Part shown: positions 10,996 through 17,603 of the stretch, in pieces
Layout of the letters: each line of letters opens with the position of its first letter
Position numbering within the stretch: the first letter of the stretch is position 1
Source: Dissulfurirhabdus thermomarina
GTDB taxonomy: Bacteria > Desulfobacterota > Dissulfuribacteria > Dissulfuribacterales > Dissulfurirhabdaceae
Length of the DNA stretch: 64,000 bases
NCBI RefSeq assembly: GCF_012979235.1
Contig: NZ_JAATWC010000002.1
Coordinates: 1-64,000 of the forward strand
Direction of reading: 5' to 3'
Program-made: the position numbers and the translations under genes
The notes under the pieces: generated by a model
The model's database searches: none
Told to the model about the DNA's origin: nothing
Seen by the model: only the letters and a program-made list of their open reading frames with translations

Positions 10996-11198
10996 CCGGA
11001 TCCGTGGCGGCTTTCAGCTCCATTGGGCCGGGGTGCCTGGAATCTCACATGGGCAGACATGATCCTCCGTAACGGACCCACCCCGCCGCCCTTCGGGGCG
11101 CCCGATAACGGGTCATCTGCGGTGCTGGCGACTCGTCAGGTATTATCGACATCGTCGCCGCCTTGTCTGGCCCGTTCTTGAACGCCACGGATCCAGGA
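10996..11198 (+). repeat. Repeat family 2, copy 2b (full length)
   Basis: Runs from CCGGATCCGTGGCGGC to CGCCACGGATCCAGGA. The outer ends form an imperfect inverted repeat around GGATCCGTGG. The interior shares GCCCTTCGGGGCGCCCGATA and GGCCCGTTCTTGAACGCC with the copy at 58406-58601. Its right end lies 9 bp before the next start codon. Confidence 0.85.
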
Positions 11199-11207
11199 CA
11201 CCTCCCC

Positions 11208-13715
11208 ATGATCCTCGACGAGTTGCTCCCATCGGTCCGGGCCCCGGCCCGCTACCTCGGAGCGGAGACCAACGCCCGGCGAAAGCCCTGGGACGGCGCC
11301 CGGTGCCGCTGGGCCCTGGTCTTTCCGGATCTCTACGAGATCGGGATGTCGCATCTCGGCCTCCACGTTCTCTACCACGTCCTGAACGACCAGCCGGACC
11401 TCCTCGCCGACCGGGCCTACTGCCCCGACCTCGACATGGAGCGGCTGTGCCGCGAGCGGGGGGTCCCCCTCTGGGCCCTCGAGAGCCGCCGGCCCTTGGC
11501 CGAGTTCGACGTGGTGGCGGTGACGCTCCCCTACGAGCTCTGCTACGCCAACATCCTCACGGTGCTGGATCTCGCCGGCATCCCCCTGCGCGCCGCGGAC
11601 CGCGGCCCCGGCGACCCCCTGGTGCTGGGCGGCGGCAGCGGCGCCGCCAACCCCGAGCCCGTGGCCCCGTTCTTCGACGCCGTCCTCTTCGGCGACGGCG
11701 AGGAGGCCGTGGTGGAGATCGCTCGGGCGGTGGCCGACTGGAAGGCCGCCGGCGGGCGGGACCGGCGGCGCCTCCTGGAGGCGCTCGCCGGCGTCGCCGG
11801 GCTCTACGTCCCCGCCTTTCATCCCGTCCGGTCCGACCCGGAGGGTCGTTTCCTGGTGCCGGTGGGGCCCCCGGAGGGGCCGGCCGGGGTGCCCCGCCGC
11901 GTCGCGGCCGACCTCGACGCCTTTCCCCCGCCGGCGGCCCCGCTGGTGCCCCTCGTCCGCATCGTCCACGACCGGCTCGGCCTCGAGGTGGCCCGCGGCT
12001 GCACCCGGGGGTGCCGCTTCTGCCAGGCCGGGGTGATCTACCGGCCCGTCCGGGAGCGGGACCCGGCCCTCCTCCTCGACCGGGCTGCGGCGGCCCTGGC
12101 GGCCACGGGGTGGGAGGAGGTCTCGCTCCTGTCGCTGAGCACCGGGGACTACTCCTGCCTGGAGCCGCTGCTCGCCGCGCTCATGCGCCGCCTCGGCCCC
12201 CGCCGGGTCGGGGTCTCGCTCCCCTCCCTCCGGGTCGGGACGCTGACCCCGGCGGTCATGGAGGAGATCCGAAGGGTCCGGAAGACGGGCTTCACCCTGG
12301 CCCCCGAGGCCGGGAGCGAGCGGCTCCGCCGGGTCATCAACAAGGGCATCACCGAGGCGGACCTCCTGGACACCGCGGCCCGGGTGTGGGAGATGGGCTG
12401 GCCCGCGGTGAAGCTCTACTTCATGATAGGGTTGCCCACGGAGACCCGGGAGGACGTGCTCGCCATCGCGGATCTGGCGCGGCGCGTGCGCGACGCCGGC
12501 GGGGCGGGGCGGCGCGGGCGCCAGGTCACGGTGAGCGTGGGGACCTTCGTTCCGAAGCCCCACACGCCGTTCCAGTGGGAAGCCCAGGTGGGGGAGGCGG
12601 TGTCCCGGGAGCGGATCGAAGAACTCCGGGCCGCCCTCCGGGGCCGCGGCCTCCGGCTCAAGTGGCACGACCCCCGGCAGAGCTTCCTGGAGGGGGTCTT
12701 CAGCCGGGGCGACCGGCGCCTCGCCGACCTGGTGGAGCGGGCCTGGCGCCTCGGGGCCCGGCTCGACGCCTGGTCCGATCACCTTCGGCCCGACCTCTAC
12801 CGCCGGGCGGCGGCGGATCTCGGGATCGACCTCGAGGCCTATCTCGGCCCCCGGGCCCTCCACGGGCCCCTCCCGTGGGACCACCTCCTTTCGGGTGTCT
12901 CCAGGGAGTACCTCCACCGGGAGCGGGACCGGGCCTTCCGGCTCGAGCCCACCCCGGACTGCCGGCGGGGCGGCTGCACCAAGTGCGGCGTCTGCGACTT
13001 CCGCCGGGTGCGGCCCGTGGTGCGCCCGGGGGCGCCGGATCTCCCCCAGGAGCCGGCCCCGGCTTCGCCTCCGCCTGCCGGGATCGCCCTCCGCCTCCGG
13101 TGGGAGAAGCGGGGGGGCGCCCGGTTCCTCGGTCACCTCGACGCGGCCCGGGCCTTTCACAGGGCGGCCCGCCGCGCGGCCCTCCCGGTGCGGTACTCGG
13201 AGGGGTTCCACCCGATGCCGAGGCTGTCCTTCGGGCCGCCGGTCCCGCTCGGGACGGAGAGCCAGGCCGAATGGGCGGTGCTGGTCCTCGAGCGGCCCGT
13301 GCCGCCCGGGGAGGTGGCCGAGCGGCTCAACGCCCACCTCCCGGAGGGGCTCCGGGTTGTGTCGGCCGAGCCCGCCGGCGCCGATCGGTCCGTGGCGCCC
13401 CCGGCGGAGGTCACCTACCGCCTGGATCTCCCCCGCCCGGTCCCGGACCTCGCCGAGCGGATCGAGGCCTTCCGGGAGGCGGCGGCCTGGCCCGTGACCC
13501 GCCGCCGGGGGGATCGGGAGCGGTCGGTGGACGCGCGCCCCCTGGTGGCGGCCCTCGAGCCCTGGCCGGGGGCCGGGGGGGAGGGGACGGCGCTCCGCCT
13601 CGTCCTCCGCTCCGTGTCCGGGGCCTCGCTCAAGCCCGCGGAGGTGGCGGCCTCGGTGCTCGGGCTCGACGCGGCGGTCCTCGCGGGCGTGCGGGTCCTC
13701 AAGGTGGGGGCGTGA
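11208..13715 (+). CDS. TIGR03960-type B12-binding-like radical SAM protein fused to DUF2344 (TIGR03936)
   Basis: Encodes 835 aa. An N-terminal cobalamin-binding-like region (about 20-190, VFPDLYEIGMSHLG, LGGGSG) is followed by a radical SAM core with C265-x3-C269-x2-C272 (CTRGCRFC). A Cys pair and GVCDF (about residue 590) follow, and the last 230 residues form a DUF2344 domain (FLGHLDAARAFHRA, SEGFHPMPRLSFG). ATG 11208 is preferred over upstream in-frame codons, which lie inside a repeat; AGGA at the repeat end is its only ribosome binding site. The family is widespread in anaerobes, often next to RNase G, and has no settled reaction. It overlaps the convergent DUF5714-like gene by 17 nt. 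Confidence 0.9.
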   Translation: MILDELLPSVRAPARYLGAETNARRKPWDGARCRWALVFPDLYEIGMSHLGLHVLYHVLNDQPDLLADRAYCPDLDMERLCRERGVPLWALESRRPLAEFDVVAVTLPYELCYANILTVLDLAGIPLRAADRGPGDPLVLGGGSGAANPEPVAPFFDAVLFGDGEEAVVEIARAVADWKAAGGRDRRRLLEALAGVAGLYVPAFHPVRSDPEGRFLVPVGPPEGPAGVPRRVAADLDAFPPPAAPLVPLVRIVHDRLGLEVARGCTRGCRFCQAGVIYRPVRERDPALLLDRAAAALAATGWEEVSLLSLSTGDYSCLEPLLAALMRRLGPRRVGVSLPSLRVGTLTPAVMEEIRRVRKTGFTLAPEAGSERLRRVINKGITEADLLDTAARVWEMGWPAVKLYFMIGLPTETREDVLAIADLARRVRDAGGAGRRGRQVTVSVGTFVPKPHTPFQWEAQVGEAVSRERIEELRAALRGRGLRLKWHDPRQSFLEGVFSRGDRRLADLVERAWRLGARLDAWSDHLRPDLYRRAAADLGIDLEAYLGPRALHGPLPWDHLLSGVSREYLHRERDRAFRLEPTPDCRRGGCTKCGVCDFRRVRPVVRPGAPDLPQEPAPASPPPAGIALRLRWEKRGGARFLGHLDAARAFHRAARRAALPVRYSEGFHPMPRLSFGPPVPLGTESQAEWAVLVLERPVPPGEVAERLNAHLPEGLRVVSAEPAGADRSVAPPAEVTYRLDLPRPVPDLAERIEAFREAAAWPVTRRRGDRERSVDARPLVAALEPWPGAGGEGTALRLVLRSVSGASLKPAEVAASVLGLDAAVLAGVRVLKVGA

Positions 13716-14370
13716 GGGGCGGGGTGTCCCGGGAGGCCGGGTAGTAGGGACATGCCCCGCGCCGGCAGCCGTGGGGGTGGCGCTCGGCGTGCCCGCAGGC
13801 CGGGGTGCGGGGGATCGGCAAGGCGACCCCGAAGTAGGCGTGGAGGAACCGGCAGGCCACCTCGATGCACTTGAGGGCGTAGGCCTTGCAGCAGCTCGGC
13901 CCGGTGAGGCCGGCCACGGCGGCCGCTGCCGCGGCCGTCACCGCCATGGTCCGGCGCTGCCGCTCGCGGGTGCCGCACTTCGAGCCCAGCAGGGTGGCGA
14001 AACACGCCCCCACGGCGGGGATCACCCCGCAGACCCCGGTGAGGCCGCAGTAGCCGCCGATGGCCTGGCGCCGTACCCGTTCCAGGATCTCCGCCTCGGC
14101 CGCCGGCGGGATCACCACGGTGCCCTCGGTGTTGAGGGCGGTGACGAGGGCCAGGGCGGCAATGGCGGCGTGGTGGCATCCCAGCATGGGCACGGCGGGG
14201 TCGTCGGTGACGACCTGGAAGAGCCGGACCGGGTCGGGCGAGGGATCGGCCCTGTACCGCGCGGTCGCCAGCTCGATCGCCGCCCGGTCGTGGCAATCGT
14301 CGCAGACGAAGTGTCCGCCGGGGCACCGGATGGCCCCCATGAAGGACCGGCCGCAGGAGGTACAGGTCAT
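13699..14370 (-). CDS. Cysteine-rich DUF5714-like protein; real start probably upstream across an in-frame UGA
   Basis: From ATG 14370 it encodes 223 aa rich in Cys pairs (CTSC, GGHFVCDDCH, GCHHAAIAAL, GGYCGLTGVCG, CCKAYALKC). DUF5714 is assigned from remembered family appearance; function unknown. Upstream the same frame continues through FVENCLTCGAPLEYLDRAIP, which would complete a CxxC...CxxC zinc-ribbon, back to TGA 14487-14485. No ATG, GTG or TTG occurs between that TGA and 14370. Beyond the TGA an in-frame ATG (14514-14512) with GAGG spaced 7 nt upstream encodes MADTHPDRC. So the gene may contain selenocysteine, be broken, or lack its first CxxC. Confidence 0.65.
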   Translation of the reverse strand: MTCTSCGRSFMGAIRCPGGHFVCDDCHDRAAIELATARYRADPSPDPVRLFQVVTDDPAVPMLGCHHAAIAALALVTALNTEGTVVIPPAAEAEILERVRRQAIGGYCGLTGVCGVIPAVGACFATLLGSKCGTRERQRRTMAVTAAAAAAVAGLTGPSCCKAYALKCIEVACRFLHAYFGVALPIPRTPACGHAERHPHGCRRGACPYYPASRDTPPLTPPP

Positions 14371-14602
14371 CGGGATCGCCCGGTCGAGGTACTCGAGGGG
14401 CGCCCCGCATGTCAGGCAGTTTTCGACAAAGCTCCCGGCTTCGCCGGACCCGGCGGCCCGAACGGGTCGCTGGTCGCCAGCGGTTCAGCAGCGGTCCGGG
14501 TGGGTGTCGGCCATGCCGTGCCTCGCGTCCGTGTCTCCGGCGGCGGAAGCCGCCTTTGTTCCATGATACCGCTCCCGGGCCCGGCGGGCCAGCCGGGGGC
14601 GG

Positions 14603-15115
14603 TCAGGCGGGGGGAGCCCCGCGTTTTTCGCCCGGTTCCAGCAGCCCCAGGAGCCCGCCGGCCGCGGCGACCCGATCGGCGAAGGGGGAGGGCGGGGCGA
14701 AGCGGAGCGCCGGGCCGCCGGTGGCGAAGAGGCGCCGGCCCTCCAGGTCGAGCACGGCCTCGAGCTCGGTCCCCGGGGGCCAGGGGACCGCTCCCTCCAC
14801 GCTCCGGTGGGGGATCCCCAGGTTGACGAGGTTCCGGTGGAAGATCCGGGCGAAGCTCCGAGCCAGGACGAGCCGGACGCCCCGCTCCCGGAAGACCTGG
14901 GCCGTCACCTCCCGGGAGGAGCCGCAGCCGAGGTTCCGCCCGGCCACGATCACGGCCCCCGGCGGGACGCGCCGGGACCACTCCTCGGAGACGCCCCGGA
15001 GGAAGCCCTCGCGGATGCGGGCGGGGTCCAGGCTGAAGTAGTCCGGCGGGTGGAGGAGGTCGGTGGAGACGTCGTCGCCCAGGACGAAGACGGGAACGGT
15101 GACGGGGCCGCTCAT
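14603..15115 (-). CDS. Aconitase-superfamily (LeuD/HacB-like) small subunit
   Basis: Encodes 170 aa, the swivelling small subunit of a two-protein hydro-lyase. GDDVSTDLL is near residue 13 and GRNLGCGSSREVTAQVFRE is the conserved substrate-binding core. In archaeal homologues a loop after the TD motif discriminates substrates (YLRT in homoaconitase, YLVY or YLVM in isopropylmalate isomerase); here it reads YFSL, so the substrate is open. Its ATG overlaps the large-subunit stop (ATGA). It is the last gene of a seven-gene minus-strand operon. Confidence 0.88.
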   Translation of the reverse strand: MSGPVTVPVFVLGDDVSTDLLHPPDYFSLDPARIREGFLRGVSEEWSRRVPPGAVIVAGRNLGCGSSREVTAQVFRERGVRLVLARSFARIFHRNLVNLGIPHRSVEGAVPWPPGTELEAVLDLEGRRLFATGGPALRFAPPSPFADRVAAAGGLLGLLEPGEKRGAPPA

Positions 15116-16398
15116 GTGCCGGGCCTCCTTCCGGGTGCCCCGCGCCGCGGCCCGTCCGGCGCCACCTCCTCGGGCGCGGCGATGCGGCCGGCCACGGCGC
15201 TGGCCGCCACCACCGGGGCGGAGGCGAGGTAGGTCTCGCCCCGGCCGGTCCGGCCGGGAAAGTTCCGGTTGGAAGTGGCCACCATGACCTGGCCCCGGCC
15301 GAGGATGCCCTTGTCGATGCCGCCGCAGGGCCCGCAGCTCGGGATGCCCACCATGCCCCCGGCCGCCACGATGTCGGAGAGGTAGCCCGCCTCCAGGGCC
15401 TCCTGGTAGACCGCCCGGGAGGCCGGGATCACCACGAGCCGCACCCCGGGCGCCACCCGGCGTCCCCGGAGGAGGCGGGCCGCGTCGGCCAGGTCCTCGA
15501 TGCGCCCCCCGGTGCACGAGCCGATGAAGGCCTGGTGGATGCGTACACCGGCGAGGGCGTCCACCGGCTCGACGTGCCAGGGGGCGGGCGGGACGGCCAC
15601 CAGGGGCCGGCCGGGAAGGGGGACGGTGAGTTCCCCGTGGTAGGCGGCGTCGGCCTCCGGCGCCAGGGGCGATTCCGGCCACCGCCCCCCCTTGGCCTCG
15701 ACGTAGGCCCGGGTCACCGCGTCGGGCACCATCAGGAAGAAGGCCGCGCCCATCTCGGCCCCCATGCAGGCCAGGGAGAACCGGGAGTCCATGGAAAGCG
15801 GCGGCTCGCACCGGTCCACGCACTCGTAGGCGAGGTCGGCCCCGGCGGGGGCCGGCCCGGTCCGCCGCAGCACGGCCAGGGCGGCGTCCTTGCCGCGGAT
15901 CCACGGCCCCCGGCGGCCCTCCAGGACGAGGCGCCGGACCTCGGGGGGCGCCATCCATGTCCACCCCGCGGCCATGGCGAAGAGGATGTCCGTGGAGCCC
16001 AGGCCCGTGGCCAGGGCCCCCAGGGCGCCGGCGGTCACCGTGTGGGAGTCCGCCCCGATGATGAACTGGCCCGGGCCGGTGGCCGGGTCTTCCACCAGGA
16101 GCTGGTGGCAGATGCCGTCGAAGGGGCGGTTTCGGATGCCCGGGAGCCCGGCGGTGAAGTCGAGGTACTTCTGGAGGATCTCGGCCCGTTCCGCGCTGGC
16201 CGGGGGCACGAAGTGGTCGGCCGCGGCGAGGATCCGCCCCGGGTGGGCCGGCGGGCGGCCCAGGGCCCGGAACCGGTCCACCAGGAGGGCGCCCGTGGCG
16301 TCGTGGAGGAGCAGGTGATCGTAGCGGACGTGGAGGAGGTCTCCCTCCCGGCCGGCGATGTGGGCCTCCAGGATCCGCTCGGTCAGGGTCGCCGGCAT
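15112..16398 (-). CDS. Aconitase-superfamily (LeuC/HacA-like) large subunit
   Basis: Encodes 428 aa, typical of the short LeuC/HacA type. Three cluster cysteines are seen in GSCTGGR and SCGPCGG, and GADSHTVTAGALGALATGLGS is characteristic. With the 170-aa partner it should bind a 4Fe-4S cluster and move a hydroxyl group on a 2- or 3-hydroxy di/tricarboxylate. It begins at ATG 16398 within the 3' end of the synthase gene (16-nt overlap). Isopropylmalate, homocitrate, citrate and citramalate derivatives are all possible substrates; the synthase next door favours homocitrate or citrate. Confidence 0.9.
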   Translation of the reverse strand: MPATLTERILEAHIAGREGDLLHVRYDHLLLHDATGALLVDRFRALGRPPAHPGRILAAADHFVPPASAERAEILQKYLDFTAGLPGIRNRPFDGICHQLLVEDPATGPGQFIIGADSHTVTAGALGALATGLGSTDILFAMAAGWTWMAPPEVRRLVLEGRRGPWIRGKDAALAVLRRTGPAPAGADLAYECVDRCEPPLSMDSRFSLACMGAEMGAAFFLMVPDAVTRAYVEAKGGRWPESPLAPEADAAYHGELTVPLPGRPLVAVPPAPWHVEPVDALAGVRIHQAFIGSCTGGRIEDLADAARLLRGRRVAPGVRLVVIPASRAVYQEALEAGYLSDIVAAGGMVGIPSCGPCGGIDKGILGRGQVMVATSNRNFPGRTGRGETYLASAPVVAASAVAGRIAAPEEVAPDGPRRGAPGRRPGT

Positions 16399-17603
16399 CC
16401 GGTGACCTCGGCGAGCAGGGCGTCCAGCACCGACTCGGAAAGCCCCAGCCGCGAGCGGTAGAAGCGGCGGCATTCCCGGACGAAGGCCCGGAGTTCCCCG
16501 TCCTTGTGCACCTCCTGGAAGGACTTGATCCGCTCGAGGAGACGGCGCTTTTCGGTCTCGGCCAGGCGCACCCCCCGCCGCTCGAGGAGCCACTCGAGGT
16601 GTTCGATCCCCGTGTGCTTGCCCAGCACGAAGCCCCGCTCCTGCCCCACCAGGGCGGGGTCGTAGGGTTCGTAGCTCCCCTCCCGGCGCAGCAGCGCCCG
16701 CGAGTGGAGCCCGGACTCGCAGCGGAAGGTGTTGAAGCCCGCCACGGGCTTGTGGGGGGCGATGGGGATGCCGGAGACCTCCTCCACCAGTTCGCAGAGG
16801 CCCCTGAGGGCCTCGGGGCGGACGTCGGTGGCGAGGCCGAGCAGCTCCCGCGCGGCCACCACGAACTCCTCCAGGGGGGCGTTTCCGGCCCGCTCGCCGA
16901 TGCCGTTCACGGTGCCCGAGAAGTAGGCGGCCCCCGCGGCCACGGCGGCCAGGCTGTTGGCCGTGGCGAGGCCGAAGTCGTTGTGGCTGTGGACGCCCAC
17001 CCGGATATCCGGGAAGGCGGCCCGGAGGCGGGCGACCTTCTCCCGCATCCGCCAGGGGGTGAGGGCGCCGACGCTCTCCGCCACGATGAAGTCGCGCACG
17101 CCGAGGCCGCGGAGCGCCAGGACGGCCTCGTGCTCCGCGGCTTCGCCCGACCGCCCGGCGTCCTCCAGGACCACCATGCAGGCGAGGTCCAGCCGCAGGG
17201 CCTCCTCCACGGCCGCAGAGATGCGGGCCTGGAAGGCCTCGAGGTCCACGGAGCGGATGAGCCCCCGGAGGATCCCGGAGATGGGGAAGAAGAGGAAGAC
17301 ACCCTGGGCCCCGAGGTCCCGGCAGCGCCGCACCTCGTCCGGGTCCGGCCGCACCGTGGCGAAGACCCGGGCGCGGAGCCCCTCGGCGGCGATGCGCCGG
17401 AGGGCTTCGGCCTCCTCCCGGGAGACCACGGGGAAGCCGGCGTCGAGGTAGGTGACGCCGGCGGCGTCCAGGGCCCGGGCGATCTCGACCTTCTCCCGGA
17501 CGGTGAAATAGACCCCGGCGGCCTGTTCCCCGTCGCGGAGGGTGCTGTCGATGGTGAGCACCGGGGGGCGGGCGGCGGGGTCGGCGGCGGTCGGAGCGGT
17601 CAT
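16383..17603 (-). CDS. Homocitrate synthase/NifV-like acyl-CoA:2-oxoacid condensing enzyme
   Basis: Encodes 406 aa of the DRE-TIM metallolyase family. The catalytic motif is DSTLRDGEQAAG (residues 19-30), the metal-binding motif is HSHNDFGLATANS, and GIGERAGNAPLEE follows. The DGEQAAG and HNDFGLATAN forms resemble NifV/AksA more than isopropylmalate synthase, and there is no C-terminal LeuA regulatory domain. No nif genes are nearby. Re-citrate synthase, a related enzyme known in anaerobes including sulfate reducers, is a real alternative. It sits between a lipoprotein gene (4-nt overlap) and the aconitase-like pair. Confidence 0.85.
   Translation of the reverse strand: MTAPTAADPAARPPVLTIDSTLRDGEQAAGVYFTVREKVEIARALDAAGVTYLDAGFPVVSREEAEALRRIAAEGLRARVFATVRPDPDEVRRCRDLGAQGVFLFFPISGILRGLIRSVDLEAFQARISAAVEEALRLDLACMVVLEDAGRSGEAAEHEAVLALRGLGVRDFIVAESVGALTPWRMREKVARLRAAFPDIRVGVHSHNDFGLATANSLAAVAAGAAYFSGTVNGIGERAGNAPLEEFVVAARELLGLATDVRPEALRGLCELVEEVSGIPIAPHKPVAGFNTFRCESGLHSRALLRREGSYEPYDPALVGQERGFVLGKHTGIEHLEWLLERRGVRLAETEKRRLLERIKSFQEVHKDGELRAFVRECRRFYRSRLGLSESVLDALLAEVTGCRRP

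Follow-up and report, generated by a model that had tools for sequence, protein, structure and literature searches.

A cysteine-rich gene with one in-frame UGA

The window analysed here is a stretch of 64,000 nucleotides (nt) from Dissulfurirhabdus thermomarina (assembly GCF_012979235.1, contig NZ_JAATWC010000002.1, positions 1 to 64,000). The gene in question is a cysteine-rich reading frame on its minus strand, 14514-13699, in which the UGA at 14487-14485 is very probably read as selenocysteine (Sec). Read from the sequence, this UGA is the single interruption of the frame, which ends at residue 271 with a TGA stop at 13701-13699 and overlaps the convergent gene 11163-13715 on the plus strand. 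Translation from ATG 14514, which has a GAGG Shine-Dalgarno (SD) motif six bases upstream, gives MADTHPDRC-U-TAGDQRPV...ENCLTCG..., the part after Sec being TAGDQRPVRAAGSGEAGSFVENCLTCG. ENCLTCG is the first CxxC pair and MTCTSCG, at ATG 14370, the second. The 39 codons between the UGA and ATG 14370 hold no ATG, GTG or TTG, and ATG 14370 has no SD match of at least three bases. A preliminary description of the locus had claimed that the frame runs upstream through ENCLTCG to the UGA with no usual start between, that the ATG encoding MADTHPDRC has a ribosome-binding site and that ATG 14370 has none, all of which we found in the sequence. Gene-calling software for which every UGA is a stop would place the start of this protein further downstream and would lose both the Sec-bearing arm and the first CxxC. 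The features of the gene are collected in Table 1.

Table 1. Features of the DUF5714 selenoprotein gene in the window, with the basis for each assignment
Feature	Position	Strand	Basis
Coding sequence of predicted selenoprotein, short DUF5714 form (271 residues, residue 10 being Sec)	13699..14514	-	Frame, profile matches, alignment
In-frame UGA, putative selenocysteine codon (Cys9-Sec10)	14485..14487	-	Conserved in relatives; Sec machinery in genome
ATG start	14512..14514	-	GAGG six bases upstream
CxxC pairs C33xxC36 and C51xxC54, probable zinc ribbon	14353..14418	-	Invariant in 33/33 aligned; strands in model
DUF5714 domain (PF18978), Cys-rich, helical in model	13741..14241	-	Pfam, alignment, model
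Putative bacterial SECIS: hairpin at nt 12-35 downstream of the UGA, with GUUC in the apical loop (14463-14460)	14450..14473	-	Loop position as in relatives, folding
Proximal hairpin CGCUGG-CGA-CCAGCG, nt 3-17 after UGA	14468..14482	-	-7.9 kcal/mol alone

Conservation of the UGA in relatives

A scan of public genomes was evaluated for the best 80 of 104 loci. Loci L010-L066 (57 loci) were counted as close, together with the fragment L079 (46% identity over residues 100-210, frame broken upstream), and the other 22 of L067-L089, with 26-33% identity, as distant. In four of the 58 close loci (L019, L020, L055, L060) a contig end cuts off the start of the gene, and L079 is broken, leaving 53 readable N-termini. 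An in-frame UGA stands beside a cysteine at the window's place in 45 of these 53, as Cys-UGA in 44 and in reversed order, UGA then Cys, in L057 (Thermosulfurimonas dismutans). Within the window's own order, where 46 genomes including its own were scanned, seven further short-form loci were found; two of them (L111, L112) are cut at contig ends, and all five others (L107, L108, L109, L110, L122) carry Cys-UGA, L122 having been matched in pieces with its frame broken further on. The UGA-bearing set totals 51 loci including the window, some of them two per genome, and the genera among the relatives include Desulfosporosinus, Thermosulfurimonas, Aquicultor, Clostridium, Desulfonauticus and Thermincola. 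The UGA is therefore conserved in homologues whose frame is open both before and after it, the mark of a selenoprotein gene. The preliminary description had proposed looking for Cys or Sec at this place in homologues and had named homologues beginning at the second CxxC as evidence to the contrary; the counts above speak for Sec, and the close homologues extend upstream through the Cys-UGA.

N-terminal to the UGA, conservation is limited to the cysteine and the presence of a start. A start with an SD match of at least 4 nt lies upstream of the UGA in 34 of 50 UGA-bearing loci and within 39 codons after it in 7 of 50. These counts bear on a different reading, in which the UGA is the ordinary stop of a nine-residue leader or chance open reading frame and the real gene begins at ATG 14370 or at a rare start, such as a CTG near the first CxxC. 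In favour of this reading, UGA ordinarily ends translation, and the apparent start of distant DUF5714 proteins is immediately ahead of the first CxxC (e.g., L069-L072, L085). However, ATG 14370 is without a ribosome-binding site and would forfeit the invariant first CxxC, while the UGA beside Cys recurs together with a hairpin, described below, in dozens of loci. We consider a downstream start very unlikely; leader-peptide, pseudogene and alternative-start readings were rejected on the relatives' UGA, the hairpin, the alignment and the SD counts.

It is also extremely improbable that the codon arose by sequencing error or by recent nonsense mutation of a protein with Cys-Cys here, given that 50 other loci, in some cases two per genome, have UGA at this place. 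UGA and a Cys codon do differ by a single base, but elsewhere the window's frame is unbroken and no invariant Cys of a 33-sequence alignment is missing from it.

In the distant DUF5714 group, Cys-UGA occurs in 1 of 22 loci (L080), probably by chance since an ATG follows five codons after that UGA. Locus L010 reads AGT TGC CGC AAA, with CGC (Arg) in place of the Sec codon and the hairpin core TCTGGTCAGA still downstream, which looks like the loss of Sec with a relic of its hairpin. Cys-UGA relatives at L066 and at L122/L125/L126 have a frame broken further on, possibly as frameshifts or decayed genes.

Selenocysteine machinery of the genome

A profile search of the genome found selA (603 bits), selB (378 bits) and two selD genes (383 and 361 bits), and the tRNA for selenocysteine (selC) scored 75 bits and was called by ARAGORN as tRNA-SeC with anticodon TCA. 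The selA, selB, selC and selD genes that the preliminary description had advised looking for are thus all present. Of the two selD genes (G000, C4:99185-100111 and C10:60502-61425), one is without and one with an in-frame TGA, the latter being the second (361 bits), with the TGA in TCGU. UGA occupies classical Sec positions in at least four other genes of this genome, namely, two formate dehydrogenases, FlpD and SelD, each followed by a possible hairpin carrying GU 20-24 nt after the UGA (nt 20, 20, 24 and 22; in the window, 22). Across the order, selB exceeds its cut-off in 43 of 46 genomes, among them all six others with short-form genes (G004, G006, G025, G027, G031, G032); selB being so common, its presence in these six adds little.

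A covarying hairpin downstream of the UGA

A bacterial selenocysteine insertion sequence (SECIS) is a stem-loop just downstream of the UGA with G or GU in its apical loop. We tested each position after the UGA for a stem of five pairs around a four-base loop in 50 loci, the UGA-bearing set without L108, and used as controls in-frame windows 120-600 nt further downstream of the same UGAs. Full 5/5 pairing was found with the loop starting at nt 19 in 30 of the 50 loci and at nt 22 in 8, one of these being L027, which has 4/5 pairs at 19; any other loop start from 13 to 32 gave full pairing in at most 2 loci. Full pairing at either 19 or 22 was thus present in 38 of 50 loci versus 175 of 8000 control windows; picking 19 or 22 per locus by best pairing flatters these counts somewhat, and the same choice was granted to the controls. 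The loop is GGUC in 34 of 50 loci. Stem pairs 3-5 covary across GC, CG, UA and AU, the commoner standard pairs among 45 distinct hairpins being GC 30, CG 7, AU 3 and UA 2 at pair 3, UA 34 and GC 7 at pair 4, and AU 23, GC 16 and CG 3 at pair 5; the closing pair adjoining the loop is standard in just 34 of 45. The peptide encoded by the stem region varies (SAGQH, QPGQA, DTGQY) while the stem is kept, and selection therefore acts at least partly on the RNA. Folding agrees, with a mean z-score of -1.14 for the 50 loci versus -0.17 for 400 control windows (p = 9e-8, mononucleotide shuffles). At the level of the family, the full pairing in 38 of 50 loci and the covariation are what a bacterial SECIS would show, and the family provides a covarying set of such candidate elements.

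In the window, two hairpins overlap and compete. The preliminary description had noted a perfect hairpin, CGCTGG/CCAGCG with a 3-nt loop, and had judged it not to be a typical SECIS. The hairpin is indeed there, at nt 3-17 after the UGA (14482-14468), and we agree with the judgment: its loop starts 9 nt after the UGA rather than at 19 or 22 as in the relatives, and for this reason it is probably not the SECIS but a competing structure. The better candidate is the next hairpin, CCC-GUUC-GGG with its loop at nt 22-25, extended by GCG/CGC and CC/GG across two A-C mismatches (CC.GCG.CCC / GGG.CGC.GG), which we infer to be the window's own SECIS. The loop at nt 22 is GGUC in the same-order relatives L107, L109 and L110 and not in L122. 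The minimum-energy prediction contains the candidate hairpin when folding is started at nt 4 to 10 (-21.1 to -15.4 kcal/mol).

A ribosome starting at ATG 14514 would, on this basis, decode the UGA as Sec with SelB, tRNA-Sec and the downstream stem-loop, giving a protein of 271 residues. With the UGA in its A site, the ribosome may open the proximal hairpin and so free nt 12-17 for the SECIS stem.

Several observations weigh against a selenocysteine at this UGA. Eight of the 53 close relatives with readable N-termini are without the UGA, namely, L010 and L014, with Arg codons there, L025, with another N-terminus, and L037, L041, L042, L043 and L065, and the segment just after Sec has no evident similarity to relatives in the alignment. 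Full pairing is absent from 12 of the 50 loci: L013, L016, L017, L040, L044, L046, L047, L056, L059 and the window have 4/5 pairs, L057 and L122 have 3/5. The window's candidate has these 4/5 pairs at nt 22 and the loop GUUC instead of GGUC, and its fold z-score of -0.58 is unremarkable and weaker than that of the family. Folds started at nt 1-3 are won by the CGCUGG/CCAGCG hairpin, so that the candidate is not the minimum of the whole stretch, and folds started at nt 11 or later favour yet another hairpin, further down, which also speaks against too simple a version of the opening by the ribosome. We nevertheless put the probability that the UGA is read as selenocysteine in a genuine selenoprotein gene at about 0.95, given the conserved Cys-UGA, the family hairpin and the complete Sec machinery, which together support the earlier suggestion of a Cys-Sec pair.

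A short, probably single-Sec relative of MbdU

The predicted protein matches Pfam DUF5714 (PF18978) over residues 92-258 with 130.2 bits, well above the gathering score of 26.2; the CxxC pairs and the Cys-Sec arm lie outside the matched region. Its only weighty NCBIfam match is NF045648, the metal-binding double selenoprotein MbdU, with 281.9 bits over residues 28-261 against profile positions 36-269 of 468, short of the cut-off of 600. Apart from NF045648, the 33 UGA-bearing sequences, the window's included, gave just three weak NCBIfam matches. The name MbdU was reportedly given by Haft and Tolstoy in mSystems in 2025. A literature search with DUF5714 as the term, which did not extend to that article, found no paper. 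In a review (PMC13188914), MbdU appears with motif CU and two Sec, and Haft & Tolstoy 2025 is cited there.

The window protein and MbdU are homologous over residues 28-261 and have in common the N-terminal Cys-Sec, which the full-length forms L028 and L064 also carry. However, the window protein is without the DUF2284 C-terminal half and the second Sec, and has 271 residues versus 468 profile positions. Since MbdU membership fails on score, length and second Sec, the protein is, as judged from its sequence, a short, single-Sec variant of the MbdU kind. The curated MbdU model is set for the 468-position double form, and against its 600-bit threshold the window protein scores 282.

A stop lies within 30 codons of the last conserved Cys in 41 of 50 UGA-bearing loci, window included and TGA counted as a stop, a count in which the query, being without a further domain, may favour short-form loci. 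The nine others comprise three long loci with a second UGA (L021, L028, L064), three with an AhpD-like part (L027, L059, L061), one with another tail (L024) and two with broken frames (L066, L122). Against the MbdU model, L028 and L064 reach 789 and 805 bits, with the second UGA in the extra half, and Pfam finds DUF2284 in L064. L027, L059 and L061 have three in-frame UGAs, an N-terminal CU, a CEPU and a near-terminal ECKTU; the AhpD-type Sec module of arsenite methyltransferase/AhpD selenoproteins is matched by profile in L027 and L061 and recognized in L059 by reading only. The terminal TGA of the window's gene (13701-13699) was considered as a second Sec and rejected, because the relatives end near the same place and the next stretch belongs to the convergent radical SAM gene.

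In L027 and L061, NF045648 and NF041537 are matched in parts only and below cut-off, and this triple-UGA DUF5714-AhpD-like form seems to have no curated model of its own. L055, with its N-terminus cut, and L014, which has lost CU, are likewise DUF5714 fused to an AhpD-like part. A short DUF5714 form without AhpD that ends in ECKTU-S (L053:2875-3713) apparently carries two Sec.

The alignment and an AlphaFold2 model were made from 33 sequences selected from the 51 UGA-bearing loci, mostly short forms. Seventeen Cys, Sec10 and three His are invariant in 33/33 and the stretch GGYCGLTGVCG nearly so; U was read as C, so that the Cys/Sec swap of L057 is invisible here. The model has a mean pLDDT (predicted local distance difference test score) of 81.9, with residues 1-26 below 50, followed by strands around the CxxC pairs and then a helical domain.

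Possible role of the Cys-Sec pair

The arsenite methyltransferase/DUF2284 and arsenite methyltransferase/AhpD selenoproteins (NF041536, NF041537) share their C-terminal Sec modules with the C-terminal parts of L028 and L064 (MbdU) and of the AhpD-fused L027 and L061, respectively. Their N-terminal half is a methyltransferase rather than DUF5714, and the window protein has no such Sec module. A paralogue in the same genome (C8; L104:1495-3414, minus strand) is a methyltransferase-DUF5714 fusion with no UGA before its end, whose methyltransferase part has arsenite methyltransferase models as its nearest matches, none of them reaching the cut-off (best 221.6 versus 263 bits). DUF5714 and arsenite methyltransferase thus hold the same place before two Sec modules and are here fused to each other, from which we infer a role in metal(loid) chemistry. 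For the window protein we hold such a role to be about an even chance; an arsenic-related one would be likely within it, since elsewhere DUF5714 has as fusion partners either arsenite methyltransferase-like domains or the Sec modules also found on arsenite methyltransferases. On this view the protein would be a stand-alone counterpart of MbdU with one Sec, active in metal(loid)/thiol chemistry. The first ~26 residues may make up a flexible arm; its Cys-Sec pair would either bind a soft metal(loid) or take part in exchange with the Cys-rich core, at a disulfide or a metal site there.

Two results count against this functional proposal. A fold search of the PDB gave no match at E <= 0.001, and no operon partner emerged, since among the 90 nearest neighbours of 47 of the 49 other UGA-bearing loci no family is shared beyond 3 of 90; for these reasons the domain fusions are what the functional argument has to stand on. 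A sequence search of the PDB returned nine weak matches (E 0.01 or worse), mostly to proteins known to bind zinc.

Most known Sec residues serve redox reactions, and a selenoprotein whose Cys-Sec pair serves plain redox chemistry, for instance as a selenenyl-sulfide peroxide or disulfide reductase, rather than a metal(loid), is a serious alternative to which we give somewhat less than even odds. It is compatible with reading the UGA as Sec, and 2 of 33 relatives weakly match the C_GCAxxG_C_C family TIGR01909 (best E 2e-4). However, there is no sign of a thioredoxin-like fold, as judged from the PDB fold search without a match, and the domain partners are arsenite methyltransferase-like and the "predicted metal-binding" DUF2284. 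The window protein itself has no TIGR01909 match at E 0.001 and the relation is unproven; DUF5714 may be distantly akin to this (seleno)protein family.

Returning to the metal(loid) proposal, we offer a wider and rather doubtful extension. The stand-alone single-Sec DUF5714 proteins could be a separate family, without a curated model of its own and the commonest UGA-bearing DUF5714 architecture, of mobile Cys-Sec metal(loid) handlers that partner arsenite methyltransferase-like enzymes, and the two mutually exclusive hairpins could make the reading of the UGA depend on the arriving ribosome, which would melt the proximal one so that the SECIS forms. The small size of the protein suits it to a direct test of the Cys-Sec pair's role in metal(loid) chemistry.

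Other genomes of the order contain long DUF5714 frames similar to the methyltransferase-fused paralogue. The gene's neighbours in the window look ordinary: the convergent gene at 11163-13715 (+) is a TIGR03960/TIGR03936 radical SAM fusion, and the upstream neighbours at 14603-17603 (-) are LeuD-like and homocitrate/isopropylmalate synthase-like genes.

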